Shown here: positions 27,697-47,531 of the stretch, one piece after another | Layout: each line of letters opens with the position of its first letter | Position numbering within the stretch: position 1 is the first letter of the stretch | From: Natrinema amylolyticum | GTDB taxonomy: Archaea; Halobacteriota; Halobacteria; Halobacteriales; Natrialbaceae | DNA length: 64,000 bases | Direction: 5' to 3' | Assembly (NCBI RefSeq): GCF_020515625.1 | Contig: NZ_JAIWPJ010000004.1 | Span: 186,001 to 250,000, forward strand | Notes under the pieces: generated by a model | What the model was told of the DNA's origin: nothing | Database searches by the model: none | What the model saw: only the letters and a program-made list of their open reading frames with translations | Program-made: the position numbers and the translations under genes

Positions 27697-28773
27697 TTAC
27701 GACCCGTCGGCGAACTGCGACGCGGCGAGGAGGAAGAATCCCTGCCCGTACGACGTCGACGTCAGCGGTGCGCCCGGGCCGCCCGGCGGACCGGCGACCC
27801 GGCGGACAGCGCCCTCGTCGTCGACGAGACCGATCGCGACTTCCATCGCGTCTCGCGCCGCCCGCTCGTATTTCTCGTCCTCGACGATACCCAGTTCGAG
27901 GGCGCGCTTGAACGCGTAGGTGTACATGAGCGTGCCCGAACTCTCGAGGGGCGTGTGGGGGTCGTCGACGATGTTGTACCACATCCCGCTGTCGTCCTGA
28001 CGTTCGACGACCGCCGAGGAAACGTCGCGGAAGATTTCGATCAGTTCGTCGCGGTCGGGATGGTCGTCGGGAAGGTACTCCAGGACGTCCACGATTGCCG
28101 CCTGAATCCAGCCGTTCCCGCGGGCCCAGAAGGTGCTCTGCGGGTAGCTGTTGGGCTGTTCGTGCCAGATGTGACGGAACAGTCCCGTGTGTAGGTCCTG
28201 AAGGTGTTTCGCGTGGACGATGATTTGCTTGGCAGCTTCGTCGAACGCCTCGGGCTCGTCGGCGGCCGCTCCGTACCGCGCGAAGAACGGACACATCATA
28301 TAGACCGAGTCGATCCAGAGGCCCTTCACGCCGGACAGCTCCGGAACGTGGTGGGGGATACCGCCGTCCTCGGTCCGTTCGACCGACTGGAGATTGTCGT
28401 ACTCGCCGCGGGCGGCCTCGAGGTACCGCTCCTCACCGGTTCGGCGATAGAAGTCGAGGACGCCGTGGCCGATCGAGGTCGTGTTGTTCGTGTTCATCGC
28501 CTTCCGCTCATCGATCTCCCAGTGGGCGTCGTACTCCTTGCCGTGCTGAAAGACCTCAATCGGGTAGCTCGGGCCGTAGGAGAGTTGCCCGTTGCTGTCC
28601 TGGGTCTCGACCGCACGGTCGACGAGCGCCCGTGCGGCCTCGGTGCAGTCGTCGCGGTCGGCGGCGAGCAGGCCGTTTATCGCGACGCCTTTCTGCCAGA
28701 CCTCGTTTTCCATGTCCTTGTCGATAGTATACGCTGCGACAGCCGCGATCGTCTCTTCGAGGGACGGTATCAT
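27697..28773 (-). CDS. Glycoside hydrolase family 105 unsaturated rhamnogalacturonyl hydrolase
   Basis: The 358-residue protein is an (alpha/alpha)6-barrel of the YteR/GH105 type, which removes unsaturated galacturonic acid from rhamnogalacturonan oligosaccharides made by PL-family lyases. Typical motifs are WQKGVAINGLL near residue 25, GVKGLWIDSVYMMCPF with the active-site Asp (about 155-170), FWARGNGWIQAA (about 225) and ESSGTLMYTYAFKRA near the C-terminal third. No signal peptide. The frame stays open upstream to 29202, but that part has no family similarity. The ATG at 28773 has a TATA-like element (28803-28814, CTGATAAATCTT on the plus strand) at the right distance. Confidence 0.93.
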   Translation of the reverse strand: MIPSLEETIAAVAAYTIDKDMENEVWQKGVAINGLLAADRDDCTEAARALVDRAVETQDSNGQLSYGPSYPIEVFQHGKEYDAHWEIDERKAMNTNNTTSIGHGVLDFYRRTGEERYLEAARGEYDNLQSVERTEDGGIPHHVPELSGVKGLWIDSVYMMCPFFARYGAAADEPEAFDEAAKQIIVHAKHLQDLHTGLFRHIWHEQPNSYPQSTFWARGNGWIQAAIVDVLEYLPDDHPDRDELIEIFRDVSSAVVERQDDSGMWYNIVDDPHTPLESSGTLMYTYAFKRALELGIVEDEKYERAARDAMEVAIGLVDDEGAVRRVAGPPGGPGAPLTSTSYGQGFFLLAASQFADGS

Positions 28774-28802
28774 AGTGACGATAGCTAAATCTCCGCGGGA
28801 TC

Positions 28803-28814
28803 GCTGATAAATCT
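28803..28814 (-). promoter_or_regulatory. TATA element for the GH105 gene
   Basis: AAGATTTATCAG on the minus strand lies about 33 bases before the ATG at 28773 and supports that start. Prediction only. Confidence 0.45.
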
Positions 28815-29317
28815 TCCTGACGGGACGGACGCGGCTGTCCTTGCAGCTCCAGACTGACGGTGGTACGGCCGACCGCGCGTCCGTCCCGATCGGATCGGTC
28901 TCGAATGTCCGACGCCACCGGAAAGGGCCGAACGGGGACTCGAACGAGTGATAGTCGAATTCCCGAACGGATCCCGAACACTCTCCGACAAACGGTTGTA
29001 CGGATCCGTCCGGCAAAGCCGGAAATATAGCTAGGGCTTCTGAACAGACGTCGCTTCCGATTACAACCATACGTTCGTAAATGTCGCACGGGATTCCGAG
29101 ACGAAGGGCCGGCAATCCGAGCAGGAACGGAGCGAGAACGCTCGAGAGCCGAATAGAATAGCTTTCCGGCGATACCGGATGGAGTGTGCGGGGGATTGGC
29201 ACGAATGGGGTCGCCGAGAGGGACGACCGATCGGACAGCGTGGCGCTACTGGCCCTCGGCGACGATCAAAAGGAGTCGAATACTCGGGCGGCGATCGACC
29301 GCGTCGCGGTACGCCCG
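28815..29317. other. Intergenic region upstream of the GH105 gene
   Basis: About 500 bases between the GH105 promoter and the mutarotase stop codon. Frames stay open here on the minus strand but show no recognisable protein. A short palindromic core TACGTTCGTAA occurs at 29070-29080 and recurs at 15392-15402. No other structure is apparent. Confidence 0.35.
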
Positions 29318-29623
29318 TTAGATCATTCGGTAGACTTCGTCCATCCACTGATCGGAGTCGTCCTCGACGACGATTCCGTCCATCTCCTCGGCCCACCGAG
29401 CCTGCGCATCGCTCGTGTCCATTACCTCTTGGATCGCTTCCGGATCGTCGAGCTCTAAGAACCCAAAGACGTGGCCATCCGACTCGAACACGCTATAGGT
29501 CTCGAGGCCGGCATCGGACTCGAGATAGGCCTCCTCGAGCCACTCGGGAACGTTCTCGTGTGCGTCGCGGTACGCCTCGCGCTGTCCGTCGGCGATCTCC
29601 AGATGGAACGCAATCCGTGCCAT
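29318..29623 (-). CDS. rhaM: L-rhamnose mutarotase
   Basis: The 101-residue protein matches the RhaM family in length and sequence: AFHLEIADGQREAYRDAH at the start with the active-site His, a central YSVFESDGHVFGFLELDD, and a C-terminal WMDEVYRMI with the conserved Trp. It interconverts alpha- and beta-L-rhamnopyranose and so feeds the dehydrogenase that starts oxidative rhamnose breakdown. The ATG at 29623 was preferred to 29683 because it gives the standard N-terminus and lies 25-35 bases after a TATA element (29648-29658). It stands between the GH105 and oxidoreductase genes, transcribed in the same direction. Confidence 0.93.
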   Translation of the reverse strand: MARIAFHLEIADGQREAYRDAHENVPEWLEEAYLESDAGLETYSVFESDGHVFGFLELDDPEAIQEVMDTSDAQARWAEEMDGIVVEDDSDQWMDEVYRMI

Positions 29624-29647
29624 ACGAGAGACGAATCGAACGGCAGT

Positions 29648-29658
29648 CCTATAGCTAT
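29648..29658 (-). promoter_or_regulatory. TATA element for rhaM
   Basis: An ATAGCTATAGG stretch on the minus strand lies about 30 bases upstream of the ATG at 29623. Prediction only. Confidence 0.45.
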
Positions 29659-29810
29659 TCCCCTGTGTCCGCCCGGTGGTCACTCGAGTCGGTTCCGGTC
29701 GACGGCCGTGCCGTCGCGACTCTCCGATCGACGTCTCTCGGCCCGGACGGAGAACAGTAAAGCGAAGCGGGAGCCGAAAAACGCGACGATGATCGGTGGC
29801 AACGAACGCG

Positions 29811-30842
29811 CTATCGGAACTGCGGCATCACTTCATCGGCAAACAGTTCCATCCCGTCGGTGTCGGGGAAGTCGATAAACCAGCCCTGGAACTTCGTCAC
29901 GCCGGCGTCGATCCGGCGCTCGATCGCCTCGGCGCACTCCTCGGGCGTGCCCATGACGAAGTAGTCGCGGGCGTCGGCCTCCGTCTCAATGTCGGCCTGG
30001 TCGATGTACTCCTCCTCGAACTGGATCGGGAGCATCAGGTCGAGCAGGCGCTCGAGTTTCTCCTCGTCGCGCGTACAGATGACGTGGCCGTCCCACGAGT
30101 ACTCAATCTCGTCGGAGTCGCGGCCGACCGTCTCGCAGTGGTCCTCAATAACGCCGATCTTGTGCTCCAAGGTCTCCGGCGTCCCGTTGAACACATCCGT
30201 GTTCCAGATGTCGGCGTGTTTCGCGACGAGTTTCAGCGTCACCTCTTCGCCCTGTCCGCCGACGAGGATCGGCGGATGCGGGTCCTGGACCGGGCCGGGC
30301 TCGCAGTAGGCGCCGTCGATCTCGTAGCGCTCGCCCGAGAACGAGGCGGCCTCGCCGGGATCGGTGGCCCACAGCTCCTTCATCAGGCGGATGCTCTCGT
30401 CTAACCGCATCAGCCGCTCGAAGCCATCGCGGTACTCCCAGCCGTAGGCCTCGTACTCGGGTTCGTGCCAGCCGGCGCCGAGTCCGAGCTCGAGGCGGCC
30501 GTCGGAGATGACGTCCAGCGTTGCGGCCATCTTCGCGACGAGCGCGGGGTTGCGGTAGTCGTTACAGAGGACGAGCGAGCCGAGGTTGATGTCGTCGGTG
30601 AGGCCGGCCAGTGCGGACAGCAGCGTCCAGCACTCGTACTCGGCGTGATCGCGCCCGAGCATGAGGTGGTCCGGCGCCCACGCGGCGTCGAAGCCCAGTT
30701 CCTCAGCTTTCAGGACGCCCTCCTTCGTGGTCTCCCAGTCGAGTCGTTCGTAACACGGCGTGTCGCGGTGGACGGGATCCGTTCCCGACTCCGGCGCGCC
30801 CGCGAACACCGGCACGTTGTACTCGAAGGTGACGTCGGCCAT
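29811..30842 (-). CDS. LLM-class flavin- or F420-dependent oxidoreductase
   Basis: The 343-residue protein is a luciferase-like monooxygenase-fold (LLM) oxidoreductase: an N-terminal barrel with AWAPDHLMLG near residue 55, LGSLVLCNDYRNPALVAKMAATLD (about 85-110), RLELGLGAGWHEPEYEAYG (about 115-135) and PPILVGGQGEE (about 190). Archaeal relatives mostly use coenzyme F420, which haloarchaea make. The gene starts 3 bases after the stop codon of the L-rhamnonate dehydratase gene, so the two share an operon. That suggests a redox step on rhamnose or a product of rhamnonate dehydration, though no family member is known to me for that job. Substrate and cofactor are inference. Confidence 0.85.
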   Translation of the reverse strand: MADVTFEYNVPVFAGAPESGTDPVHRDTPCYERLDWETTKEGVLKAEELGFDAAWAPDHLMLGRDHAEYECWTLLSALAGLTDDINLGSLVLCNDYRNPALVAKMAATLDVISDGRLELGLGAGWHEPEYEAYGWEYRDGFERLMRLDESIRLMKELWATDPGEAASFSGERYEIDGAYCEPGPVQDPHPPILVGGQGEEVTLKLVAKHADIWNTDVFNGTPETLEHKIGVIEDHCETVGRDSDEIEYSWDGHVICTRDEEKLERLLDLMLPIQFEEEYIDQADIETEADARDYFVMGTPEECAEAIERRIDAGVTKFQGWFIDFPDTDGMELFADEVMPQFR

Positions 30843-30845
30843 GGA

Positions 30846-32051
30846 TTACTTCACGCTGTAGTGCTCGAGAGCCTCGGGATTGGTCTCCGAACTCAGCCCG
30901 ACGGTGTCGGGCAGCGGGATGGTCCCGTTCTCGGCGTTCGGCGGGTTGGCGTAGATGGCGTCGGCGTAGGTCGACTCCTGTTCGCCCTGGCGCTCCTGAT
31001 ACCACTCGGGGATCGGGAAGTACTCCGCCATCGGCGCGTTGGTCGACGCGGCGATGAAGTGCAGGGTCGGGTTCGTGCCGGAGTGGGGGATCACCGGCAC
31101 GTCGCGGGCGCTGGCCATCGAGTCGATCTTCAGCAACTCCGTCAGCCCGCCACAGCGGTGGACGTCGGGCTGGAGGATGTCGACGGCCTCGCGCTCGAGC
31201 AGTTCCTTGTGCCCCCAGCGGGTGAACTCGTGTTCTCCGCCGGAGATCGGCACGTTCGAGGCCTCGCGGACCTCGGCGTAGCCGTCGATGTCGTCGGGGA
31301 TGACCGGCTCCTCGACCCACTCCATGTCGTAGCGCTCGAGGCGCTTGAGCATCTTCTTGGCGTACCGAACGTTCCAGCCCATGTAGGCGTCGCCGGCGAT
31401 CGCGAGTTCGTCGCCGACGGCGTCCCGGACCGTCTCGACGATCTTCTCGTTCTCTTTCATCCCCTCGCGACCCGCTTCCGGTCCGTACCGGAACCGGAGT
31501 TTCATCGCATCGAACCCCTGTTCCGCGTAGTTCTGGGCCTCTCGAGCGAGTTTCTCGTGGTCGACGGGATGGAGGTTGCTCGCGTAGCAGGGAATCTCGT
31601 CCGTGACCGGTCCACCGAGGAGTTCGTACACCGGCTTCTCGGCTTCCTTGCCGGCGATGTCCCAGAGCGCGAGGTCGACGGCGCTGATGGCCTCGATGGC
31701 CGCACCCTTCCGACCAAACGGGATCGTCGCTCGGTACATCATGTCCCACAGTCGTTCGCGTTGGTGGGGGTCCTCGCCGATGACGAGCTTCGAGAGCGTC
31801 TCGTTGACGATCGTCTCGATCGAGCCCGTCGCCCAGTTGCCGACGCCGACGCCGGTGATGCCCGCGTCCGTTTCGACTTCCACGACGACGTCGCCGACCG
31901 GCCCCATCCACTTCCGACGGGCCTCCGGATTGTCGCCGTCGGCGTTGTTGTACTCGTCGAACTTGCTCATGACGGTGACGAGCGGGAACTCGACGAACTC
32001 TCCCCAGGAATCGGTACTTACCTTCGTGACGTTGATATTCGTTATCTCCAT
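30846..32051 (-). CDS. rhmD: L-rhamnonate dehydratase (enolase superfamily)
   Basis: The 401-residue enolase-superfamily enzyme resembles L-rhamnonate dehydratase. FDAMKLRFRYGPEAG supplies the conserved Lys, AIAGDAYMGWN an Asp metal ligand, WVEEPVIPDD a Glu ligand, SGGEHEFTRWG a further Glu, and VIPHSGTNPTLHF the catalytic His with the rhamnonate-type following motif. It converts L-rhamnonate to 2-keto-3-deoxy-L-rhamnonate. ATG at 32051 begins the family N-terminus. An upstream TATA (about 32108-32117) implies a 35-base leader or the longer start at 32105. It heads an operon with the LLM oxidoreductase and is divergent from the zinc dehydrogenase gene. Confidence 0.9.
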   Translation of the reverse strand: MEITNINVTKVSTDSWGEFVEFPLVTVMSKFDEYNNADGDNPEARRKWMGPVGDVVVEVETDAGITGVGVGNWATGSIETIVNETLSKLVIGEDPHQRERLWDMMYRATIPFGRKGAAIEAISAVDLALWDIAGKEAEKPVYELLGGPVTDEIPCYASNLHPVDHEKLAREAQNYAEQGFDAMKLRFRYGPEAGREGMKENEKIVETVRDAVGDELAIAGDAYMGWNVRYAKKMLKRLERYDMEWVEEPVIPDDIDGYAEVREASNVPISGGEHEFTRWGHKELLEREAVDILQPDVHRCGGLTELLKIDSMASARDVPVIPHSGTNPTLHFIAASTNAPMAEYFPIPEWYQERQGEQESTYADAIYANPPNAENGTIPLPDTVGLSSETNPEALEHYSVK

Positions 32052-32418: not shown

Positions 32419-33453
32419 ATGAAGGCCATAGTACATACCGGACCGAAATCCATCGAGATCCGCGAACGTGAGCGGGCAGTTCCCGACGACGACGAAGTAT
32501 TAGTTCGCGTTCACTCGGCGGGCCTGTGCGGAAGCGATGCGCACGCATACAAGTACGAGGACGGCTACGAGTGGATCCCGATTCCGCGAATTATGGGCCA
32601 CGAGTACTCCGGCGAGGTCGTCGAAGTCGGCGACGACGTCACCGACTTCGCGGTCGGCGACCACGTCGTCGAGGAGCCGATCCACGACTGCGGCTCGTGT
32701 TTCCAGTGTAAGAACGGGCAGCCGAACGTCTGCCAGAACTTCGAGATCACGGGCATGCACAACGACGGTGCCTACACCGAGTACACGACGGTGCACCCGA
32801 AAGATCTGCACCTGATTCCGGACGACGTCCCGCTCGGACACGCGAGCATCACCGAACCGCTCAGCATCGCGACGCGCGCAGTGTTCGATCAGTCCCACGT
32901 GACGCCGGGCGACACCGTCCTCGTGGAGGGTCCCGGCCCGATCGGCGTGCTCGTCGCGGCCGTCGCGGACTCGATGGGTGCCAACGTCTTCGTCTCGGGA
33001 CTGGGCAAGGACACCGAGTATCGACTGCCGCTGGTCGAACGGCTCGGGATCGAGACGATCGATATCGAGACGAACGACCTCTCGGACGTCGTCGACGAGC
33101 GAACCGACGGCGTCGGCTTCGACGCGGTGTTCGATACGACCGGCCACTCGAGCGGCGTCGAGATGGCCATCGACCACGTCCGGAAGGGCGGACAGGTTAT
33201 CGTCGTCGGTCTCCCCGGCTCCCCCAGCGAAGTGTTCATGACGCCGGTCGTTCGCGGCGAGGTCGACGTGAACACGTCCTACGGCTCGACCTGGCAGAAC
33301 TTCGAGCAGGCCATTCGACTCCTCTCGGCCGGTGCGATCGACGCCGACGCGATCATCGACCGCTCGTTCAGCGTCGACGACCCGACCGCCGCGTTCGAGG
33401 CGTTCCTCGAGTCGGAGACCTGTAAGCCGGTCTTCTCGTTTTCAGATCAATAA
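32419..33453 (+). CDS. Zinc-dependent medium-chain dehydrogenase (sugar or sugar-acid dehydrogenase)
   Basis: The 344-residue protein is a zinc alcohol dehydrogenase of the sorbitol/threonine dehydrogenase type. Catalytic zinc ligands are Cys37 (AGLCGSD) and His61-Glu62 (MGHEYSG). Four cysteines in the HDCGSCFQCKNGQPNVC stretch hold the structural zinc, and GPGPIGVLVAAV is the NAD(P)-binding loop. Its place opposite L-rhamnonate dehydratase suggests L-rhamnose dehydrogenase or 2-keto-3-deoxy-L-rhamnonate dehydrogenase, the two oxidations of the diketo-hydrolase route. Sequence alone cannot decide between them or exclude another polyol. Confidence 0.88.
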   Translation: MKAIVHTGPKSIEIRERERAVPDDDEVLVRVHSAGLCGSDAHAYKYEDGYEWIPIPRIMGHEYSGEVVEVGDDVTDFAVGDHVVEEPIHDCGSCFQCKNGQPNVCQNFEITGMHNDGAYTEYTTVHPKDLHLIPDDVPLGHASITEPLSIATRAVFDQSHVTPGDTVLVEGPGPIGVLVAAVADSMGANVFVSGLGKDTEYRLPLVERLGIETIDIETNDLSDVVDERTDGVGFDAVFDTTGHSSGVEMAIDHVRKGGQVIVVGLPGSPSEVFMTPVVRGEVDVNTSYGSTWQNFEQAIRLLSAGAIDADAIIDRSFSVDDPTAAFEAFLESETCKPVFSFSDQ

Positions 33454-33746: not shown

Positions 33747-33752
33747 ATACCT

Positions 33753-35783
33753 ATGACAGGAGACGAGACTCCGTCCGACGGAGAGGAATCGAACGTGACG
33801 ATGGCCCGGCGCGGGGCGCTCGGGCTGCTCGGTACCGCTGGGCTCGGGACCGTACTCGCCGGCACCGCATCGGCACAGGGGAAGGGCAACCAGCCATGGC
33901 ACGAGTGGGACGCTGACGTCAACGCCAACGGCCACAGTCTCACCGAGCTGGGCGCACTCGCGACGGTCGCAAACGACGCGCCGATCGCGGACTTCGCGGG
34001 GGAGAACCTAAATGTGGACGATGACGGCGTCCTCAACGCCGAGGGATCGCCCGAATCGATCCACGTGGTCACCGAGTATCCCGGCGACACGCTCGACCAG
34101 AAACTGGAGAACGTCCTCGACGCGCTCCCGGAGGGCGACGACATCCCGAACAAGCAGCCGGGCCACAAGATCGTGATCCCCGCGCCCGATCCGGACGATC
34201 CGGCAGCGGCCGACGGCCTGCCGGCCTGGCGGTTCGAGTCCCCGGTCGAGATCGACGACAACACCGGCAAACTGGTGTTCGAGATGGGATGGACCCTGAT
34301 CTACGCCACGGAGTCGATCGAGAGCTTCTTCGTCATCGGACCGGACGAGAAGACCGAGAACATCAACCTCTACGGCGGGATGTTCTACGCTAAAGGGAAC
34401 GTAGAGCGGTCGTTCATCGATATTCAGGGGGTCGGCCACATGCACATCTCCCGGCTGTACCTCCAGAACCTGGCGGAGCGAAACAGCGTACCGGCTGGGA
34501 TCCGACTTGCGGACTACCACGGCTCGAGCGAACTGACGATCAAAGACACTGAAGTGACTGGCTGTCGCGACGGCTTCCTCGCCGAGTACGGGAGCGACGA
34601 CGTCCCGTACGGTCCGTCGTTCGACCTCGATATCTCCAACTGGCGCGCGGGCGGCGGCGAGCACAGTATCCGGATCGACGGCGGCGCGTCGATCACGCTG
34701 GACTCGATCCAGGTCGGCGGCCACCCGCTCCAGTCGGTGAGCGAGGACATCATCAGACTAGAGAACTCCGTCAACGAGACTCGGAGCGTGTCGATCTCGA
34801 ACGTCCACGAGCGCCACAACGCGATGGACTACAACAGCGGCGTCAAGGTCGTCGACGTGACCGACGGCGAGGGGCCCCGCCACAACGGGATCATCGTCGA
34901 GAACGTCGACCTGTTCCACGCCGAGTACAGCACCGATATCGAATACGCGTCGTACTTCGATCAGCAGAACCTGCGTCCCGCGCCGAAAGTGAACGACGAC
35001 GCGGCCGGGTCCACGCGCTGGTTCGACGATGGCGTCCAGAAACACGAGACCTACAGTTCCCACGAGTTCCACGCCGGCGGGTCGCCCACGCTCGCCGTCG
35101 GCGAGGACGACGTCAGAATCGACGGCGCCGGCAACGGGGCCGTCCTCACGACGCCTGACGGCCAGAGTCGGTATCGCGTCCGGGTCGACAACGACGGGAA
35201 CCTGATCACCGAAGAAATCGAGGACGGTGACGATCGGACGGGAATCATCGAGAGCTTCGAGGACGGCGACCTCGCCGAGTACGAGGGCGAGACGGACGCC
35301 TACGCGATCGACGACTCGGCGCCGGTCGGCCACGGCGACGCCAGCCTCAAGAACACCTCCGGCGGCACCGCCGTCATCGTCTCGACGAGCGGGCTAGCAC
35401 AGTACCCGCGGGCCGGGGACGCGTTCGCCGCGCAGGCGGCCCGGACCGAGACGAACGCCAATCTCGGCATCGCCTTCGGGGCACAGGACACGGACAACTT
35501 CTACTTCGCTCGGATCTATCCCGAGAGCAACGGCGACCGTCTCCAACTGTACAAGCGCGTCGACGGGGAGTACACCGAACTCGCCAAGGCGAACGTTTCA
35601 GTCGAACGAGACACGCTGTACGACTTCGTCGTCGACTGGGGCGAGTTCGGCGAGATAGACGTCGAGGTCCGAGACCCGTCCGGCGACGCGATCGGGTCGG
35701 TCACCGCCACGGACGAGACGTTCACCGAGGGCGGTATCGGCGTCCGCAGCACCGGCGCCCTCGACAACGTTCGATTCCGCTGA
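33753..35783 (+). CDS. Tat-exported parallel beta-helix protein with C-terminal laminin-G-like domain
   Basis: The 676-residue protein has a twin-arginine signal (MARRGALGLLGTAGLG then AGTASA before the likely cleavage at about residue 42). An N-terminal module (WDADVNANGHSLTELG, DDDGVLNAEGS) is followed by a parallel beta-helix (about 140-400, with repeated V-x-I-x-N/D rungs). A C-terminal beta-sandwich (about 490-676) carries the NFYFARIYPESNGDRLQLYKR and TLYDFVVDWGEFGEIDVEV strands typical of laminin-G/concanavalin folds. No known lyase or hydrolase catalytic motif is recognised. It is the only secreted non-lipoprotein in the cluster, so it may bind or depolymerise the polysaccharide outside the cell. 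It is similar in layout to the protein at 12054-14084. Confidence 0.82.
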   Translation: MTGDETPSDGEESNVTMARRGALGLLGTAGLGTVLAGTASAQGKGNQPWHEWDADVNANGHSLTELGALATVANDAPIADFAGENLNVDDDGVLNAEGSPESIHVVTEYPGDTLDQKLENVLDALPEGDDIPNKQPGHKIVIPAPDPDDPAAADGLPAWRFESPVEIDDNTGKLVFEMGWTLIYATESIESFFVIGPDEKTENINLYGGMFYAKGNVERSFIDIQGVGHMHISRLYLQNLAERNSVPAGIRLADYHGSSELTIKDTEVTGCRDGFLAEYGSDDVPYGPSFDLDISNWRAGGGEHSIRIDGGASITLDSIQVGGHPLQSVSEDIIRLENSVNETRSVSISNVHERHNAMDYNSGVKVVDVTDGEGPRHNGIIVENVDLFHAEYSTDIEYASYFDQQNLRPAPKVNDDAAGSTRWFDDGVQKHETYSSHEFHAGGSPTLAVGEDDVRIDGAGNGAVLTTPDGQSRYRVRVDNDGNLITEEIEDGDDRTGIIESFEDGDLAEYEGETDAYAIDDSAPVGHGDASLKNTSGGTAVIVSTSGLAQYPRAGDAFAAQAARTETNANLGIAFGAQDTDNFYFARIYPESNGDRLQLYKRVDGEYTELAKANVSVERDTLYDFVVDWGEFGEIDVEVRDPSGDAIGSVTATDETFTEGGIGVRSTGALDNVRFR

Positions 35784-35977: not shown

Positions 35978-36003
35978 GCCCGATGCGACGCTTTCCGCAC
36001 ACG

Positions 36004-36873: not shown

Positions 36874-36892
36874 GGAGCGACTCACCCCGCGT

Positions 36893-39800
36893 TCAGTTCT
36901 CTCGTCGGCGTTCGAACGCGTAGGTTCCGGCACCGATTTCGGCGACGAACTCTCCGTCCTCGAGTCGAACGGAACTGACGCCGTTCGGAAGCGCATCGGC
37001 CGGTTCTCCCTCCCAGAGCCGCTCGCCGCCCTCGTCGACGACCGCGTCCTCGTCGGCGGGGAGTCGAACCGTCGCCGTCGTGTTCCAGGGTACCTCCGCC
37101 TCGAGAACGAGCCCATCGTCGGTTCGCTCCCAGTGCGAGGCGAGCGTTCCGTTGACGGTCTCGATTTCGCCGGCGGCCCACTCGAGATCGTCGACGATCG
37201 CGGGAGCGATTTCGACCGAGCCGCGGCCGTGCATCGAGTCGTCGAACCGGAGCCCGGCCAGCGCGGTGTAGAACCACTCGGAGACGAAGTTGAGCGGGGA
37301 GTGATTGAAGGAGTTCATCCCGTCACCGATGTGATCGTCGGCGTCCCAGCGCTCCCACATCGTGGTCGCGCCCTGGCGGGACATGTACACCCAGCCGGGG
37401 CGTTCGGGCTGACTGACGACCTCGTAGGCGACCTCTTCGTGGCCGAAATCGACGAGCGCGTGGACGAGCGGCCGGGTCCCCAGGAAGCCGGTCCGGAGTT
37501 TGCCGCCGTCCGCCCGCACCGTCTCGGCGAGATTGGCGGCGACGGCCTCGGCGTGTTCGTCGGGCACGAGGCCGACGAACAGCGGGACCGCGTACGAGGA
37601 CTGCGTTCCCGGCCCGTACCGACCGGCGTCGACGTCGAAGAATGCCTCGTTGAACGTCGCTGCGATCGACTCGGCGCGGGCGGCGTAGCGCTCGGCGTCG
37701 TCCGTGCGGTCGAGAACGGCGGCGATCTTCGCGAACAGGTTCGTCGTGTGGTAGTGGAAGGCGGTATTGTACAGATCGAACGGGAGCCCGCGACGGCCGT
37801 CCGCGTTCTCGAAGGTCAACCAGTCGCCGTAGTTGCCGTACTCGCCGGACACCAGTCCGTCGTCGGACTCGGAATGCCAGTACTCCAGGTATTGACGCAT
37901 CCCTTCGTAGTGGCGCTCGAGGACGCCGACGTCGCCGTAGTGACGGTAGAGGTGCCAGGGGATCGTCACCTGCGTGATCCCCCAAGTCCGATCCTCGGGG
38001 ATCGTTCCGTAGCCGTAGGGGACGGTGTCGGCGATGTAGCCGTGCTCGGAGCGAACGTCCGCGTGGTCGTCCATCCACTTGCGATAGAACCGGTCGGCGT
38101 CGAAGTTGTAGCACAGCGCCCGCGCGGCGATGTGGTTGTCGCCGGTCCAGGCGAAGCGCTCGTCGCGCTGCGGGCAGTCGGTGAGCACGCCGTGGGCGTT
38201 CCCGCGCAGGCCCCACTCGGCGTTCCGCTGAACCCGTGAGAGCTCCTCGTTCGAGCAGTCGAACGCGCCGATCGGATCGAGGTCGGTGTGGACCACCTTC
38301 GCGGTGACGCGTTCGGGCTCGAGGTCGCCAGGATACCCCGTCACCTGCACGTACCGGAACCCGTGGTAGGTGAAGCGCGGCTCGTAGGTCTCGACGGGCG
38401 CACCGTTCGCGACGTAGGTGTCGGTCGCGTCGGCCGACCGAAGGTCCGCAAGCGCGAGGCTCCCGTCCTCGAGCAGCGTTTCGGCGTGGCGGAGTTCGAT
38501 CTCGTCGCCCGCCGACGCGCCCTCGACGGTCAACTCGACCCAGCCGACGAGATTCCGCCCGAAGTCGAGGATCGTCCCCTCGTCGTGCTCGAGGACCGCC
38601 TCGGGCTCGACCGTCTCGGTGACTCGGATTGGCGGCGTCTGCTGGGGGACGAGGTCACCGCCCGGCCCGTCGACGACCGTCGCGGGCTCCCAGCCGGCGT
38701 CGTCGAAGCCGAGATCGGCCCACCCCTCGTACTCCTCGCGTGCGTCGTATCTCTCGCCGTCGTAGAGGTCGTTCTCGAGTACGGGACTCGAGGCCGCCCG
38801 CCAGGAGCCGTCCGTCGAGACGGTGCGCGTGGTGCCGTCTCCGTACTCGATCTCGAGTTGGAGGAGCCCCCGCGGGGCGCCGAAGCCGGTCCAGTTCTGG
38901 ACGTTCTTTCCGAACCAGCCGCGGCCGAGCCAGAGTCCGACGGCGTTCGCGCCGGCCTCGAGGTGGTCGGTGACGTCGTAGGTGCTGTAGACCGCCCGCT
39001 CGTCGTACTGGGTCCAGTCCGGGTTCAACGCGTCGTCGCCGACCCGCTCGCCGTTTACGTAGAACTCGCCGTAGCCGAGCCCGCAGACGTGTGCGCTGGC
39101 GCGGGCCACGTCGGTCTCGAGATCGACTTCGGTCCGCAACAGCGGCGATCCGGGGGCGGTACGAGACTCCTCGTGGCCGTCCACTAACTTCTCTCGTCCC
39201 CAGGTAGCGGTCTCGACGCTCGAGGACGCCGCGACCGGCTGCTCCGCCGCGATGTCCGCGCCGGTCTCGTCCCGGACGACGAGTGCGGCCAGCGCGAACA
39301 CCTGCCAGGCGCGGCGCTCCTCGCGGATGTGCTCGGGATCGAACTTCGGGTGGCTGGACGGCGGCGAGGCGGGATCGAACTCGTAGGGATCGGACGCGAC
39401 GACGCGGACGTACCGCGCCTCGCCGTCCGCATCGACGGTCACACCGTCGGGAGCGGGGTTTTCCGCATCGGTCCGCTCGAGGACGGTTCGCGCGTCTTCG
39501 AACGCGTGATCGTCGGCGACTTCGATCCGGTAGTCCGACGGAAACCCGAATCCGGCAGGGCCGTTCGTGACGGCGTCCGACTCCGCCTCGTGGCTGTAGC
39601 GTTCCGATACCGCCGTTCCGTCGGGCGTCGTCGGTCCGTCGAACGGATCGGCCGGGTGGAGTTCGATCCGTTCGAATCGGCGAACGTCGCCCAGATCGAC
39701 CTGTACCCACTCCGCGACGTCCGCATCGGCGGGGTGCCAGTGGCTCCGGTAGCCGTTCGAATCGCCGCCGTCGGGACGGTAGCCGATCCACTCGCCCTCC

Positions 39801-40180
39801 CACTCGGACTCGCCCGCGAGCGTCGTCGAGAACCGGGCCGGTTCGGCCCACTCCGAGGGCTCGTCGGTTTCGTCCCAAACGCGGACGGTCCAGTAGTAGT
39901 CGGTCGCCGACTCGAGCGGGACGCCGTCGTAGGGGACGCACGTCGAATCCGGAACGGCCACCTTCCCGGAATCCCAGCAGTCGCCGCGTCCGTCCTCGAG
40001 CGCCGCCTCGGATCGGGCGACGAGGATCCGATAGGCGGTCTGGCGCGCGCCGCGATCGGGAGACGCGACTCGCCACGAGAAATCGGGCGTCTCCGGTGCG
40101 ACGGTACTGGGTGCGGGCTCGTAATCGACCCGGAGGGTGACGGGTCTGGTGGGATGGCGGTCCCTCACGTATGTTGTCAC
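36893..40180 (-). CDS. Alpha-L-rhamnosidase, glycoside hydrolase family 78, with an inserted discoidin-like domain
   Basis: The 1095-residue protein is a GH78 alpha-L-rhamnosidase. It has a fibronectin-like N-terminal domain, the rhamnosidase-N jelly roll (YVNGERVGDDALNPDWTQY), a concanavalin-like domain, the (alpha/alpha)6 barrel and a C-terminal beta domain. The general acid Glu lies in DCPQRDERFAWTGD and the base Glu in TTMWERWD. Between the first two domains, about residues 140-310, sits extra sequence that looks like an F5/8-type (CBM32-like) sugar-binding domain (EWVQVDLGDVRRFERIEL, ARYVRVVAS), explaining the length above the usual 900. It has no signal peptide. The GTG at 40180 is chosen because a TATA element lies about 28 bases upstream; a TTG at 40198 is possible. 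Confidence 0.93.
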   Translation of the reverse strand: MTTYVRDRHPTRPVTLRVDYEPAPSTVAPETPDFSWRVASPDRGARQTAYRILVARSEAALEDGRGDCWDSGKVAVPDSTCVPYDGVPLESATDYYWTVRVWDETDEPSEWAEPARFSTTLAGESEWEGEWIGYRPDGGDSNGYRSHWHPADADVAEWVQVDLGDVRRFERIELHPADPFDGPTTPDGTAVSERYSHEAESDAVTNGPAGFGFPSDYRIEVADDHAFEDARTVLERTDAENPAPDGVTVDADGEARYVRVVASDPYEFDPASPPSSHPKFDPEHIREERRAWQVFALAALVVRDETGADIAAEQPVAASSSVETATWGREKLVDGHEESRTAPGSPLLRTEVDLETDVARASAHVCGLGYGEFYVNGERVGDDALNPDWTQYDERAVYSTYDVTDHLEAGANAVGLWLGRGWFGKNVQNWTGFGAPRGLLQLEIEYGDGTTRTVSTDGSWRAASSPVLENDLYDGERYDAREEYEGWADLGFDDAGWEPATVVDGPGGDLVPQQTPPIRVTETVEPEAVLEHDEGTILDFGRNLVGWVELTVEGASAGDEIELRHAETLLEDGSLALADLRSADATDTYVANGAPVETYEPRFTYHGFRYVQVTGYPGDLEPERVTAKVVHTDLDPIGAFDCSNEELSRVQRNAEWGLRGNAHGVLTDCPQRDERFAWTGDNHIAARALCYNFDADRFYRKWMDDHADVRSEHGYIADTVPYGYGTIPEDRTWGITQVTIPWHLYRHYGDVGVLERHYEGMRQYLEYWHSESDDGLVSGEYGNYGDWLTFENADGRRGLPFDLYNTAFHYHTTNLFAKIAAVLDRTDDAERYAARAESIAATFNEAFFDVDAGRYGPGTQSSYAVPLFVGLVPDEHAEAVAANLAETVRADGGKLRTGFLGTRPLVHALVDFGHEEVAYEVVSQPERPGWVYMSRQGATTMWERWDADDHIGDGMNSFNHSPLNFVSEWFYTALAGLRFDDSMHGRGSVEIAPAIVDDLEWAAGEIETVNGTLASHWERTDDGLVLEAEVPWNTTATVRLPADEDAVVDEGGERLWEGEPADALPNGVSSVRLEDGEFVAEIGAGTYAFERRREN

Positions 40181-40203
40181 ATACCGGGATTGGAGCAACC
40201 GAC

Positions 40204-40213
40204 GCTTATAGAT
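40204..40213 (-). promoter_or_regulatory. TATA element for the GH78 gene
   Basis: AATCTATAAG on the minus strand lies about 28 bases upstream of the GTG at 40180, which favours a leaderless transcript with a GTG start. Prediction only. Confidence 0.5.
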
Positions 40214-40303
40214 TCGGGTGCGGCGGGTCGTGGCTCGAGACGCGAGTGCGACCCGAACCGCGAAAATCGAAGGAGAACTCTAACGTGGCCGAAATCGATG
40301 CCG

Positions 40304-41140
40304 TTACTCGCCGACGACGTGGTTCTCGAGCGTGCCGATGCCCTCGACCTCGGCTTCGACCGTGTCGCCCGGTGAGAGCAGTTCCGGCGGATCGCGGAAG
40401 ATGCCGACGCCGCCCGGCGTGCCGGTCGAAATGACGGTGCCCGGCTGCAGGGTCATTCTGTGACTGAGGTACTCGATGGCGTCGCCGACGTCAAAGATGA
40501 ACTCCGCGGTCGAGGACTCCTGTTTCACCTCGCCGTTGACCCGAAGTTCGACGTCGGCGTCGTTGGCGTCGATCGCTTCGGGTGCGGTCAGGGCCGGCCC
40601 CATCGGTGCGAACGTGTCGTAGCTCTTACCCCGGAAGAACTGGCCGTCCTCGAACTGGGCGTCGCGCGCGCTGACGTCGTTGACGACCGTGTAGCCCGCG
40701 ACGTACTCCTCGGCCTCGTCGGCCGAGACGTCGCAGGCGGTCCGACCGATGACGACGCCGAGTTCGACCTCGTAGTCGACCTGCTCGACGTCCTCGGGAT
40801 GGACGATCGGCGCGTCGGGATCGGTGACGCTCGAGGGCGATTTCGCGAAGAGCATCGGCTTGTCCGGGATCTCCTCGTCCTGCTCTTCGGCGTGATCGAA
40901 GTAGTTCAGCCCGATACAGATGATCTGCTCGACCGACGGGATCGGGGCCAGCCGGTCCTCGGGCTCGTCGATTTCCGGGAGTTCCCCCGTCTCGACGGCG
41001 CGGCGGACGCGGCGACGGTAGCCCGGCGTCGCGAGGTCCTCGATCGTCGGTTCTCCGAAACGGTCCAGCGCGTACGACTGGTCGTCGACGGTAACGCCCC
41101 AGCGGACGCCACCGCTGGTCGCGAATCGAACGAATTGCAT
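40304..41140 (-). CDS. Fumarylacetoacetate hydrolase family protein, probable 2,4-diketo-3-deoxy-L-rhamnonate hydrolase
   Basis: The 278-residue FAH-family protein has the fold's N-terminal cap, IICIGLNYFDHAEEQ, then YEVELGVVIGRTACDV with metal-binding Glu residues, NDVSARDAQ, and FFRGKSYDTFAPMGP with the conserved Lys. In the diketo-hydrolase pathway an enzyme of this family splits 2,4-diketo-3-deoxy-L-rhamnonate into pyruvate and L-lactate. Placed between the rhamnosidase and the lactate oxidation genes, that role is very likely here. Start is the ATG at 41140 (a GTG precedes it directly). It follows the Fe-S gene after 70 bases. Confidence 0.88.
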   Translation of the reverse strand: MQFVRFATSGGVRWGVTVDDQSYALDRFGEPTIEDLATPGYRRRVRRAVETGELPEIDEPEDRLAPIPSVEQIICIGLNYFDHAEEQDEEIPDKPMLFAKSPSSVTDPDAPIVHPEDVEQVDYEVELGVVIGRTACDVSADEAEEYVAGYTVVNDVSARDAQFEDGQFFRGKSYDTFAPMGPALTAPEAIDANDADVELRVNGEVKQESSTAEFIFDVGDAIEYLSHRMTLQPGTVISTGTPGGVGIFRDPPELLSPGDTVEAEVEGIGTLENHVVGE

Positions 41141-41210
41141 CACCTCAGAATTCCTGTCCTGGATCTTGAATCTTTCTCTCGGGTCGCGGGGACGGACCGC
41201 ACCCGCCCGA

Positions 41211-43433
41211 TCACTCGGACTCGTCCGGTGCGACGAGCGAGATCGGGTGGCGCGGCCGACGGGCGAGGAGCCCGTCCAGTTGCTCGAGACACGACGTCCC
41301 GCTCGCGACGACCGTTCGATCGGCGGCGTCTGGCGACTCGAACTGCTCTCTGAGTCGGTCGCCGACGTCCATACTCAGTTCGTAGTACTCGCTCTTGTAG
41401 CCGAAGCTCCCCGCCATGCCACAGCACTCGACGTCGGAGGTGAGGACGTCGTACCCCAATCGGTCGAGGACGTCCGTCGTGTAGGCCTCGAGTTCGAGCG
41501 TTCGTTGCTGGCAGTGGGAGTGGTACGCGATGTCGGCTCCGACGCCGCCCGCGTCGACGCCACGCAACGGGGCCGGATCGGCCCCGTTCTCGAGGAGGCC
41601 GTAAACGTACTCGAAGACCTCGTAGCTGCGCTCGGCGAGGGCCTCGTAGCGGTCCGCGTCGAGGAGTCGCTCGTACTCGCCGCGGAACATGGCGAGGTCG
41701 CTGGGTTCGATCACGACGACGTCGTAGCCCGCCTCGAGGTGGGACTCGAGGTCGGCGGCGACGTCGCGAGCGTGGTCTTCAGCGGTGGCGATCATCCCTT
41801 GGGAGAGCGGCGCGCGACCGGATGAGGCGACGTCGGGGACTTCGACCGCGACGCCCAGCGCCTCGAGCGTTCGGACGGCCGCCTTCCCGCGGTCGGTCCG
41901 GATGTAGTTCGTGTAGAGGTCGGGGTAGACGACGGCGTGGTAGTCGGCGTCGACAGGCCGGGGCTCGTCCCGGTTCCGGAACCACTCGACGAACGTCTCG
42001 CGCTCGAATTCGGGCAGGTCACGGCGGCGGTCGACGCCGATGACCCGTTCCATGAGCGCTCGCGAGGGCAGCGTGTCCGCGACCCAGTTCGATACGGGTG
42101 CGGTCGCGGATCCGAGTTTCGCGAGCGTCGAGAAGTTACCGAAGAAGCGCTTTTGCAGGTCGAGGCCTGCGGGCTCCTCGTCCGGAGTGAGTCCCTCGAC
42201 CAGGAAGTCGAGCTCTCCGCCTTCGGCCCCGCGATTGCGCCGATCCCGGACGACCGTGTTGATCCACGGGATGTCGATCTTCACCGGACACTGGTTGACA
42301 CACCGCGAGCAGCCGGTACAGAGGTCGTTGAACTCGTCGGCCGACTCCTGACCGTGGACGCCGGCCTCCCAGCCGGTCGCGATCCCGCCCGAATAGGTCT
42401 CGCCGCCGAAGACGTGGCCGCCGACGGACTGGAAGTTCGCACACGAGTTCGCACAGGCGGAACACCGGATACAGTAGAGGGTCTCCCGGAGCTGGTCGTC
42501 GTCGCGCATATCCATCCGGCCGTTGTCCAGCAAGACGAGATGGAAGTCCCGCTCGGCCGGATCGTCGGCGATCGGCTCGTCGTCATCGAAATCGACCGGC
42601 GGCGTCGAGACCGGCGGCGAGAAGAGAGAGACGTAGGAGGTGATGTCCTGTCCCGTCCCCGAGCGCGCGATCAGTTCGACGAACGGCTGGAGGTCCTCGA
42701 ACGTCGGGATTACCTTCTCGACGCCCGCCACCGCGACGTGCGTGTCGGGCACGGCGACGGTCTTGCGGGCGTTGCCCTCGCTGGTTACCAGCGCCATCGT
42801 CCCCGTGTCCGCCGTCACGAAGTTCGCGCCGGTCACGCCGATGTCCGCGTCCTCGATCCGCTCGCCGAGGTACTCCCGCGCGAACGCGGTCAGCTCCTCG
42901 GCCGTCTCGAGTTCCTCCTCGGGTTCGAAGTACTCGTTGAACAGGGCGGCGATCTCCTCGCGCGACTGGTGGATCGCCGGCGCGACGAGGTGACTGGGCG
43001 CTTCGTCGGCCACCTGCAGAACGAACTCGCCCAGATCGGTCTCCCAGACCTCGCAGTCCTCGGCCTCTAGGTGCTCGTTGAGGTCGATCTCCTCGGTCGT
43101 CATCGATTTCGACTTGACGACGGTCTCGGCCGCCCGCTCGCGGGCGAGTTCGCGGACGTACCGGTTCGCGTCGGCGGCATCGTCGGCAACGTAGACAGTC
43201 CCGCCGTTCGCCTCGACCGCCTCGCGCACCTGCTCGATCAGCTCGGGAAGGCGTTCGATCGCGTCTTCCTTGATAGCCCGCGCTCGGTCCTTGTACGCGT
43301 CGTAGTCCTCGAGTCGGGCGACGGACTCGTATCGCCCCTCGTTGAATCCGCGGGCGTTGCGCTCGACGCTGTCGCCCTCCGTTTCCATGACGTGCCGGAT
43401 CCGATCGGCTTTCCGGGATCGCTCGCTCGCCAT
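41211..43433 (-). CDS. Fused LUD-domain / iron-sulfur / CCG-domain lactate oxidation protein (LutB-LutA type)
   Basis: The 740-residue protein joins two subunits that are separate in bacteria. The first part (about 1-460) is LutB/LldF-like: a LUD domain and two [4Fe-4S] sites, CIRCSACANSC near residue 320 and CTGCSRCVNQCP near 375. The C-terminal part (about 500-735) is LutA/LldE-like with a CCGMAGSFG cysteine motif near 670. The LutABC complex oxidises L-lactate to pyruvate. The start ATG overlaps the stop of the LutC-like gene by one base (TAATG), so the two are coupled. Two CCG repeats are usual in LutA; I clearly see only one Cys-Cys-Gly motif here. Confidence 0.88.
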   Translation of the reverse strand: MASERSRKADRIRHVMETEGDSVERNARGFNEGRYESVARLEDYDAYKDRARAIKEDAIERLPELIEQVREAVEANGGTVYVADDAADANRYVRELARERAAETVVKSKSMTTEEIDLNEHLEAEDCEVWETDLGEFVLQVADEAPSHLVAPAIHQSREEIAALFNEYFEPEEELETAEELTAFAREYLGERIEDADIGVTGANFVTADTGTMALVTSEGNARKTVAVPDTHVAVAGVEKVIPTFEDLQPFVELIARSGTGQDITSYVSLFSPPVSTPPVDFDDDEPIADDPAERDFHLVLLDNGRMDMRDDDQLRETLYCIRCSACANSCANFQSVGGHVFGGETYSGGIATGWEAGVHGQESADEFNDLCTGCSRCVNQCPVKIDIPWINTVVRDRRNRGAEGGELDFLVEGLTPDEEPAGLDLQKRFFGNFSTLAKLGSATAPVSNWVADTLPSRALMERVIGVDRRRDLPEFERETFVEWFRNRDEPRPVDADYHAVVYPDLYTNYIRTDRGKAAVRTLEALGVAVEVPDVASSGRAPLSQGMIATAEDHARDVAADLESHLEAGYDVVVIEPSDLAMFRGEYERLLDADRYEALAERSYEVFEYVYGLLENGADPAPLRGVDAGGVGADIAYHSHCQQRTLELEAYTTDVLDRLGYDVLTSDVECCGMAGSFGYKSEYYELSMDVGDRLREQFESPDAADRTVVASGTSCLEQLDGLLARRPRHPISLVAPDESE

Positions 43434-43936
43434 TATTCCTCCACGATGACCGCGTGCGTCTCTCGCGGGCCGTGCACGCCGTAGACGAGTTCGCCCATGT
43501 CGGCGGTCGCGCTCGGACCGGTCGCGATGACGGCGTCTCCGTTGCCGTTTCGGAACCGGTCGCCCAAGCGCTCGAACGCCGACGCCATATCGGGGACGAG
43601 ATCCCGCTCCCGAACGACGATCACGTGCCGGTCGGGAAAGAGACCGGCGAGTTCGGCACCCGCCGGCGTCGACTCGAGGACGACCGAGCCGTAGTCGGCG
43701 ACGCCGAGCGCGGCGGGGGTCACACCGCAGGCAGCCTCGCGGAGCTGGTCGGGCGTCGGATCGAGGACGATGTCCGTTCCCTCGAGCGTGATCTCCTCGA
43801 AGGGGAGCGAGGCGCCGATCGCGGGCTCGTCGACGACGTCGGCGAGCGCGTCCTGAAACGCGGCCGGTGAGGTCCGAGTAACGGCGGTCCGGACGTTTCC
43901 GAGGTTCGTTTCGAACGTTTCTAGCTGTGTCTCCAT
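43433..43936 (-). CDS. lutC: LUD-domain lactate utilisation protein (LutC/LldG-like)
   Basis: The 167-residue LUD-domain protein is the third component of LutABC-type lactate oxidation. It has ACGVTPAALGVADYGSVVLES, VIVVRERDLVPDM and GPSATADMGELVYGVHGPRE, the family's C-terminal signature. The ATG at 43936 gives a usual N-terminus. The frame continues upstream but without similarity. It is the first gene of the lutC-lutBA pair and is transcribed towards the FAH-family hydrolase and rhamnosidase genes, placing lactate oxidation next to the reaction that makes L-lactate from rhamnose. Confidence 0.88.
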   Translation of the reverse strand: METQLETFETNLGNVRTAVTRTSPAAFQDALADVVDEPAIGASLPFEEITLEGTDIVLDPTPDQLREAACGVTPAALGVADYGSVVLESTPAGAELAGLFPDRHVIVVRERDLVPDMASAFERLGDRFRNGNGDAVIATGPSATADMGELVYGVHGPRETHAVIVEE

Positions 43937-44121
43937 TGCGTGAGCGTGACTAACTGATGCCACGGATTTGGATCTTGTCATTGGCCACCACGTCGGCGCG
44001 GGGACGCGAGCGCGAAACTGAGCGGTCGACCCGTCGACTCGCCGGCGGCGGCACTGGCAGCGACGAGAGCGGTAGACCTCAACACCGCGCCGAGGGGGAG
44101 GACGCTGTCTCGACGCCGGAA

Positions 44122-45804
44122 TCAGAGCGGCGGGACGTTGCCCGCGGTCCGGTAGCCGCAGTCGCCGTCGATCGGCGTCTCGGCGGCAGTGCAATCGTTG
44201 TTCGCGAACAGGCGGTCGTCGTCGCAGTCCCTCGCAGAGAGGAAGGTCCGGGTCCCCGGACTCGCCCGGCAGTTCCTGATCGTACTCGTCGTCGTTCCCC
44301 GGAGCGAGATCGCTGCGGCCGTCGTGACCGACCCCGTCTCTGCCGTCCCCGCGGTTGACGCCGTCGCTTCCGGCCGTGCCTGCCGTCCCGCGAACCCGTC
44401 GATCGCGAGCCTCTCGACGTCGACACAGCGGATCCCGTGGGCGAAGTAGTCCGGAAGCTCGTCGCCCCACTTGAGAGCCACGTCGGACAGCGCGAGATCG
44501 GTGACGCGCTCGCAGTGGAGCCCGGAGATATCGGACTCGTAAATCGGGGCCGTTACCGCGGTCGGTTGGAGATCGACGTTCCCGCCGACGCGGTCCGCAT
44601 AGCGGCCGCCCTCGATCGACAGCGAGACTGCATCGAGGCGGATCTCCTCGAGCGTCGCGTCCGCGTGTCCGTAGAGGAGCGCACCGTTCTCCGCGTCGGC
44701 GACGACGTTCGCGAACCGGACGTCTCTGACCGCACCGAGATCAGTGTCGTCGTCGCGCGGGACCGACGTCACGTAGATCGGCTCGGCTTTCCCCCACCAC
44801 GGCCCCGGAAGCAGGTGCGTCTCGACGGTGATGTTCGAGAACAGGACGTGCTCGATCAAGCCGCCGTCGCGGTGCTGGATCCCCAGCCCCCGGTTCGAGC
44901 CGTAGACGACGCAGTTATCGAACGTACAGTGGCGGATATCGCCGCCGGTCTCGGAGCCGAATTTGATCGCACACGCGCTCGAGGCGAGCGTGCAGTTGGT
45001 GACGGTCACGTGCTCGCAGGGCCGTTTTCGGTCGTCGTGAGAGACGAGCGTAATCGCGTCGTCGCAGGCCTCGATCGCGCAGTCGGCGACCCGAACGTTG
45101 CGGGAGTTGCCGATCGCGATCCCGTCACAGTTCGGGATCCGCATGTGGTTGCGGATCGTGACGCCGCGGATATCGACATCGACGCAGTCATCGAGGCTGA
45201 GCGTCCACGCGGGCATGTCTCGTAGCGTGATATCGCGGATCGAAACCCCCTCACAGTCGACGAGGTGAATCATCGGTCCGGGCCGAAACGACGGCTTCGC
45301 GACCGGCCACTCGTCGATCGCTCCCGACCAATCGAGGTAGTCATCGCCCTGTCGGGCGCGATGGGGCGCGTTCGAGACGAGCGGATGTCCCTCGCTCTCG
45401 CCGGAGTGCTGACGGATCGGTTCGTCCGTGTCCATGATCTCGGTCCCCCGTCCGTCGATCGTCCCCTCGCCGACGACGGCGACGTTCTCGACGCCCTCAG
45501 CGAGGACGAACGGCCGCTCGCCGTCGGGGCCGACGTGGCGGTCGACGTACGCCGACTCCGACTCGGCGGGGCGCAGACGTGCCCCCGCCTCGAGGCGGAG
45601 CGTCACGTCACTGCGGAGATGGACGGTTCCGAGGACGTACTCGCCGCTCGAGACGGTAACGGTACCGCCGCCGTCGTCGCGGCAGGCGTCGATCGTGCGC
45701 TGAAAGCGTTCGGTCGCGAGGTCGTCCGTCGACTCCGCGTCTCGGTTCGATTCGGCAGGCGGTTCGATCCGAAACGACGCAGTCGGCTCCGTGGGCTCGG
45801 TCAT
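44122..45804 (-). CDS. Glycoside hydrolase family 28 (polygalacturonase-like) protein
   Basis: The 560-residue parallel beta-helix protein is of GH28 type. An N-terminal pectate-lyase-like strand set (FQRTIDACRDDGGGTVTVSSGEYVLGTV) is followed by the catalytic region PNCDGIAI near residue 226 and EACDDAI near 248, which supply the conserved Asp residues, and KFGSETGGDIRH further on. GH28 enzymes cut galacturonic or rhamnogalacturonan backbones. The C-terminal 100 residues have an Ala/Thr/Gly-rich low-complexity segment. No signal peptide, so it would act on imported oligomers, unusual for a polygalacturonase. A TATA-like ATTTAGACC lies about 28 bases before the ATG. Confidence 0.87.
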   Translation of the reverse strand: MTEPTEPTASFRIEPPAESNRDAESTDDLATERFQRTIDACRDDGGGTVTVSSGEYVLGTVHLRSDVTLRLEAGARLRPAESESAYVDRHVGPDGERPFVLAEGVENVAVVGEGTIDGRGTEIMDTDEPIRQHSGESEGHPLVSNAPHRARQGDDYLDWSGAIDEWPVAKPSFRPGPMIHLVDCEGVSIRDITLRDMPAWTLSLDDCVDVDIRGVTIRNHMRIPNCDGIAIGNSRNVRVADCAIEACDDAITLVSHDDRKRPCEHVTVTNCTLASSACAIKFGSETGGDIRHCTFDNCVVYGSNRGLGIQHRDGGLIEHVLFSNITVETHLLPGPWWGKAEPIYVTSVPRDDDTDLGAVRDVRFANVVADAENGALLYGHADATLEEIRLDAVSLSIEGGRYADRVGGNVDLQPTAVTAPIYESDISGLHCERVTDLALSDVALKWGDELPDYFAHGIRCVDVERLAIDGFAGRQARPEATASTAGTAETGSVTTAAAISLRGTTTSTIRNCRASPGTRTFLSARDCDDDRLFANNDCTAAETPIDGDCGYRTAGNVPPL

Positions 45805-47527: not shown

Positions 47528-47531
47528 GTTG

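Follow-up and report, generated by a model that had tools for sequence, protein, structure and literature searches.

We analyzed a window of 64,000 nucleotides (nt) from Natrinema amylolyticum (assembly GCF_020515625.1, contig NZ_JAIWPJ010000004.1, positions 186,001 to 250,000), whose genome assembly comprises 4.71 Mb in 11 contigs and is 99.98% complete. The window carries a cluster of genes for a putative L-rhamnose pathway, together with polymer-cleaving glycoside hydrolases and the lactate oxidation genes lutC and lutBA. Families were assigned through Pfam and NCBIfam profile matches, and all the genes named for this locus in an earlier reading of the sequence (the original prediction) are found at the family level (Table 1). 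The lactonase, the keto-deoxy-rhamnonate dehydrogenase, and the diketo-hydrolase of the pathway all lie within this one locus. On the minus strand, GH28, lutC, lutBA, FAH, and GH78 form a run with gaps of 140, -1, 67, and 105 nt—i.e. LutC and LutBA share one base, and the 67-nt gap separates LutBA from FAH. The lut genes thus stand upstream of the hydrolase gene on the same strand, as originally described, and the run, which is the sole operon candidate that includes lut, could form one or two transcripts. The plus strand carries the zinc dehydrogenase, a 676-aa protein, and the lactonase.

Table 1. Features of the rhamnose locus, with positions in the window and predicted functions (ORF, open reading frame; percentages are identities to proteins of the Haloarcula pelagica cluster unless stated otherwise).
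Feature	Position	Strand	Profile match or identity
GH105-type unsaturated uronyl hydrolase	27697..28773 (ORF 27697-29202, likely start 28773)	-	PF07470, 208 bits
L-rhamnose mutarotase (RhaM)	29318..29623 (ORF 29318-29683, likely start 29623)	-	PF05336, 52 bits
Luciferase-like (LLM) oxidoreductase, candidate F420- or flavin-dependent sugar dehydrogenase	29811..30842	-	PF00296
L-rhamnonate dehydratase, enolase superfamily	30846..32051 (ORF 30846-32105, likely start 32051)	-	PF13378/PF02746; 74% to rhcD
Zinc dehydrogenase, 2-keto-3-deoxy-L-rhamnonate dehydrogenase (RhcE type)	32419..33453	+	PF08240/PF00107; 72% to rhcE
676-aa protein, Tat-like N-terminus	33753..35783	+	92% copy in Natrinema zhouii cluster
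Amidohydrolase, L-rhamnono-lactonase (RhcC type)	35983..36873	+	PF04909 (Amidohydrolase_2); 65% to rhcC
GH78 alpha-L-rhamnosidase	36893..40198	-	PF17389, PF08531, PF05592
FAH-family 2,4-diketo-3-deoxy-L-rhamnonate hydrolase (RhcF type)	40304..41143	-	PF01557; 60% to rhcF
LutBA fusion (LUD + FeS + CCG-type), L-lactate dehydrogenase large subunit	41211..43433	-	PF02589, Fer4 families
LutC, LUD-domain subunit	43433..43981	-	PF02589
GH28-family protein	44122..45804	-	PF00295
CUT1-like sugar ABC transporter (ATPase, two permeases, binding protein)	46349..50971	-	ATPase PF00005, binding protein PF01547; permeases by position and similarity to permeases of related clusters alone
IclR-family regulator, RhcR-like	51264..52028	+	PF01614/PF09339; 57% to cluster IclR

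Eight of the cluster proteins are 60 to 82% identical to those of the rhc cluster of H. pelagica, and the same layout recurs in Haloterrigena, Natrinema, and Halostagnicola, so it is not due to chance. Within 16 kb, the H. pelagica plasmid (NZ_CP126162.1) shares with the window a mutarotase, rhcC, LutBA, LutC, an ABC transporter, rhcE, rhcD, an LLM oxidoreductase, an IclR regulator, and rhcF (the names rhcC, rhcD, rhcE, and rhcF are those of the NCBI annotation). It differs in carrying a short-chain dehydrogenase/reductase (SDR) gene at the mutarotase, and its LutBA belongs to another lineage and sits beside rhcC, not rhcF. The lactate genes of the window resemble the LudBC, LutABC, and LdhGH lactate dehydrogenases in their LUD and FeS domains, with the LUD domain and FeS centre of LutB fused to the LutA part and LutC as a further subunit, but the window copy sits in a sugar cluster and the genome holds a second, unlinked copy.

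We find that this is very probably a haloarchaeal locus for the oxidative degradation of L-rhamnose derived from rhamnogalacturonan, in which the linked LutC/LutBA oxidizes the lactate produced. Rhamnose would be released by GH28, GH78, and GH105, with a PL11 lyase encoded just outside the window, and the mutarotase and a first dehydrogenase would lead to rhamnono-lactone. The lactonase, rhamnonate dehydratase, zinc dehydrogenase, and FAH hydrolase would then convert this lactone into pyruvate and L-lactate, and the linked LutC/LutBA complex would turn the lactate into pyruvate. What the sequence supports is the family-level identities and the conserved linkage; from these we infer the substrates, the order of the steps, and co-expression.

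The coupling to lactate oxidation is not new, as the functional idea is in print for Haloferax volcanii, and the linkage data given below extend it. Two studies describe an rhc pathway in this species that also ends in pyruvate and lactate, and that has an IclR activator (RhcR) and an ABC transporter (RhcJ; PMC8305020, PMC11519228); full growth on rhamnose needs ludBC, according to the former (PMC8305020). Compared with H. volcanii, known here from text and not from gene order, the window has the linkage of lut genes to the hydrolase gene and interleaved pectin-type hydrolases, and its genome has no close SDR.

The placement of a diketo-hydrolase rhamnose pathway next to polymer-cleaving enzymes, part of the original prediction, is supported, and the nature of the polymer is suggested by the enzymes themselves. 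A PL11 rhamnogalacturonan lyase (PF21348, 800 bits) is encoded on the same contig and ends about 4 kb before the window. Together with GH105, GH78, and GH28, this lyase is consistent with rhamnogalacturonan I as the predicted substrate. GH78 and GH105 occur in ulvan use too, and the polymer might then be ulvan or another rhamnose-rich uronide. We consider this improbable given the nearby PL11 lyase, the GH28 protein within the locus, and the annotated rhamnogalacturonan or oligogalacturonate lyases that accompany related clusters, and retain rhamnogalacturonan as the likely source of the rhamnose. PL11 and GH105 genes had been noted earlier in Haloterrigena turkmenica, in a passage of PMC3102087.

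To place the lactate genes in a wider context, we surveyed 391 genomes, a draw from the class, with E-value thresholds of 1e-140 for the dehydratase, 1e-110 for the LLM, 1e-70 for the SDR, and 1e-75 for FAH. The weakest accepted matches were 1e-204, 1e-183, 3e-87, and 5e-77, respectively—i.e. the empty margin at the threshold is wide for the dehydratase and LLM and smaller for the SDR, while the FAH set extends almost to its threshold. The dehydratase is carried by 49 genomes, all of which have at least one LutBA. Because 170 of 194 genomes sampled from the class carry LutBA, which makes it nearly universal, its presence was rejected as evidence of coupling, and only its distance to the dehydratase is informative. 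Of the 49 genomes, 28 have a LutBA no farther than 20 kb from the dehydratase and 31 have one no farther than 30 kb; about 1 of 49 would be expected, given roughly 1.6 LutBA copies per 4-Mb genome. These 28 genomes span five families (12, 9, 4, 2, and 1 genomes), and they bear out the idea that lactate oxidation genes of the LUD type are tied to the pathway.

The details of this linkage vary among relatives. Seven of those fetched (L039 to L044, L046) share the arrangement of the window, with LutBA upstream of FAH at a distance of 71 to 132 nt, while among the other fetched relatives it is 2.1 kb upstream in one and elsewhere downstream or on the opposite strand. In a LutBA tree of 75 of the 77 copies (2 partial copies were left out, and a quick method without bootstrap was used), the linked label changes 7 times, with at least 5 changes forced by well-supported branches. 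Linked copies fall into two separate groups, one of Natrialbaceae type, to which the copy of the window belongs, and one that contains Haloarcula-type copies. The tree thus places linked LutBA in at least two lineages, and this separation implies repeated gain or loss of the linkage. LutBA copies at least 80% identical to that of the window occur in 6 of the 194 genomes, all with the dehydratase. Previously documented in one species, the lactate link is shown here to be widespread in gene order, with different LutBA lineages recruited more than once.

Several points weigh against rhamnogalacturonan-derived rhamnose breakdown coupled to lactate oxidation. The best NCBIfam model of the dehydratase, L-rhamnonate dehydratase, scores 259 bits, under its cutoff of 393; that of the FAH protein (NF053535, 2,4-didehydro-3-deoxy-L-rhamnonate hydrolase) scores 208 bits, under a cutoff of 500; and for LutBA both the LdhH model NF045670 (449 bits, cutoff 800) and the LutB model (349 bits, cutoff 445) fall short. 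With these specific cutoffs not reached, the functions of the three proteins rest on best-scoring models, synteny, and identity to the rhc cluster. At the survey thresholds, 15 of 60 FAH genomes are without the dehydratase, and 4 of 49 dehydratase genomes are without FAH. Passages of two studies report that haloarchaeal isolates with such genes did not grow on pectin or rhamnogalacturonan (PMC9726719), and that haloarchaea with pectin genes grew marginally at best in liquid (PMC12343721). Growth on rhamnogalacturonan is predicted from the genes and is unproven. For the lactate genes, the second, unlinked LutBA of the same genome (69% identity) could do the job, LutBA is nearly universal, and the adjacency that the original prediction proposed to seek in other haloarchaea, present in the 28 genomes above, is absent at 20 kb from the other 21 of the 49, including all 8 genomes of one genus (g43, probably Haloferax as inferred).

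The near-universality of LutBA and its lack of linkage in these 21 genomes would also fit lut genes that serve general use of L-lactate or 2-hydroxy acids, and whose place beside the hydrolase gene is incidental. We find this unlikely in view of the 28 linked genomes, the origin of linked copies from more than one LutBA lineage, and the restriction of window-type LutBA, among the 194 genomes, to those with the dehydratase. It also sits poorly with the phenotype of H. volcanii, in which deletion of ludBC impairs growth on rhamnose according to PMC8305020. Separately, the FAH hydrolase is linked to LutC/LutBA in two genomes without the dehydratase at the threshold (locus L053 of G298 and locus L061 of G264), and L061 has a UxaA-like dehydratase nearby, recognized by eye; this arrangement is possibly another deoxysugar route to lactate.

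The part of the locus most worth following is the bond between the LLM oxidoreductase and the dehydratase. The original prediction had omitted the LLM gene, as well as the 676-aa protein, the ABC transporter, the IclR regulator, and the lack of an SDR homolog in the window. The LLM gene starts 3 nt downstream of the dehydratase, and it is found in 49 of the 391 genomes—the same 49 that carry the dehydratase—with both genes adjacent on one contig and one strand in every case (hypergeometric P = 1e-63 for co-occurrence, a value that ignores relatedness). Of the 48 loci in which the distance from the dehydratase stop to the LLM start was measured, 46 have a gap of 1 to 4 nt; the remaining two have -4 and 10 nt. 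Among eleven window proteins compared with H. pelagica, the LLM is the most conserved (82%, the rest at most 74%). Furthermore, two genomes of one genus (G356 and G191) have sister LLMs (100/99) and dehydratases that fall across the deepest, well-supported split of the dehydratase tree, and a third genome (G270) has the same conflict. One partner was thus swapped without loss of the adjacency, which argues for a functional bond beyond common descent.

The family of the LLM is clear (PF00296, 183 bits), and its profile matches leave the cofactor less so. The four best NCBIfam models are all F420 subfamilies, all under their cutoffs (e.g. TIGR03560, 222 vs 231), and the PDB profile matches mix F420 and FMN enzymes. 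The F420-dependent glucose-6-phosphate and sugar-6-phosphate dehydrogenases (FGD and FSD) have the LLM fold and belong to the same superfamily; according to PMC6279831, they oxidize sugar phosphates, with FSDs weakly active on free sugars. Their similarity to the window LLM is remote (5lxe and 3b4y, E about 1e-13 with a profile), and the uncharacterized LLM 3rao, methanopterin reductases, and FMN monooxygenases score equal to or above them. An AlphaFold model built from six sequences had a mean pLDDT of 39 and was not used.

Twelve further LLM matches occur in this genome, and the nearest relatives outside the dehydratase-linked group are 44 to 46% identical. In Haladaptatus halobius (L179 5395-11159) and Haloarcula sp. 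GH36 (L184 15776-19106), such a paralog lies beside an SDR, a mutarotase-family gene, and an SMP-30/gluconolactonase, with a sugar ABC transporter also alongside, and gene content suggests a second sugar-oxidation cluster in these two genomes. Three remoter relatives (about 40% identity) lie by peptidases or unrelated genes; the comparison of neighbourhoods covered relatives other than H45 and H46. A scan of viral contigs for more LLM relatives confirmed none, and no paper tying an LLM to rhamnose was among the literature matches listed. In an excerpt of PMC8305020, HVO_B0113 is listed as an unassigned F420-type homolog; it may be the H. volcanii LLM, an unconfirmed identity, and a literature search on the locus tags neighbouring it found no paper. 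The same study describes F420 as being of enigmatic importance to haloarchaea and reports a single F420-dependent reaction (PMC8305020). An LLM that shares the distribution of rhamnonate dehydratase in 391 genomes offers a concrete substrate class for this question.

We also considered which enzyme performs the first step of the pathway. In H. pelagica it is presumably the SDR, because of its position in the cluster and because a characterized fungal L-rhamnose dehydrogenase is reported to be an SDR (PF00106). The Haloarcula SDR has no specific NCBI name, and no NCBIfam model settles its function. Its orthologs (at least 293 bits) occur in 19 of the 391 genomes, all among the 49 with LLM and dehydratase. 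A close SDR was sought in the genome of the window and none was found: among 37 SDR matches, all outside the window, the top one reaches 39% identity (138 bits). On gene content, the first dehydrogenase here differs from the SDR that Haloarcula-type clusters carry. A comparison of 36 LLM loci (15 with the SDR, 21 without), in which gene calling was crude and some LLM genes were split, revealed no other recurring family recognized as an aldose dehydrogenase in the 21 SDR-less loci, where several recurring families were left unannotated.

The leading candidate is therefore the LLM itself, as an F420- (or flavin-) dependent L-rhamnose 1-dehydrogenase that would be the standard first enzyme in most haloarchaea, with the SDR a later addition in some Haloferax-like and Haloarcula-like lineages. 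We put this forward tentatively and think it rather doubtful; the 19 genomes that hold both LLM and SDR speak against it. If true, coenzyme F420 would gain a place in haloarchaeal sugar metabolism, and F420H2 would be one electron carrier of the pathway, beside the lactate-derived electrons passed to quinol. The alternative, to which we give slightly better than even chances, is that an ordinary NAD(P) dehydrogenase, unlinked or of a different class (another SDR or a Gfo/Idh/MocA protein), performs step 1, and that the LLM does something else, e.g. detoxification or a side reaction on a keto-deoxy acid. Several candidates are at hand, namely the 37 SDR matches in the genome and two Gfo/Idh/MocA proteins farther off in the window (7926-9074 and 57659-58654), and three SDR-less clusters (L047, L048, and L049) have another SDR of about 35% identity nearby. 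The 19 genomes with both genes fit this alternative as well, as do the LLM relatives at about 40% identity, which sit by peptidases and not by sugar genes. Against it stand the low identity of the genome's best SDR, its absence from the window, and the lack of another recognized aldose dehydrogenase family among the annotated families of the SDR-less loci. Near the rhamnose cluster of an H. turkmenica plasmid (L034 27556-32361), mycofactocin biosynthesis genes are also found.

A shared rhamnose regulon that includes lut is possible. Exact copies of the palindrome CCGRTGWCAYCGG precede lutC in one locus of the Haloterrigena group and the zinc dehydrogenase or GH78 in two others. In the window it has 16 two-mismatch matches vs 14.3 expected—i.e. 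chance level—and a k-mer and palindrome search found no operator common to the window promoters. With both strands used and no common regulator motif found in these promoters, the earlier description of the locus as one unit is too strong.

Other features of the window are of less direct bearing. The 676-aa protein has no Pfam, NCBIfam, or PDB match, and besides the N. zhouii copy it has partial similarity elsewhere. A mannonate dehydratase remnant (26983-27492, plus strand) retains the C-terminal part only (PF03786 profile positions 192-350 of 352) and appears to be a decayed gene; the cluster of a relative has an annotated mannonate dehydratase of full length. Further carbohydrate genes lie at 2097-14825, including a GH2 beta-galactosidase, a GH115 protein, a beta-helix/ricin-lectin protein, and a KDPG-type aldolase.

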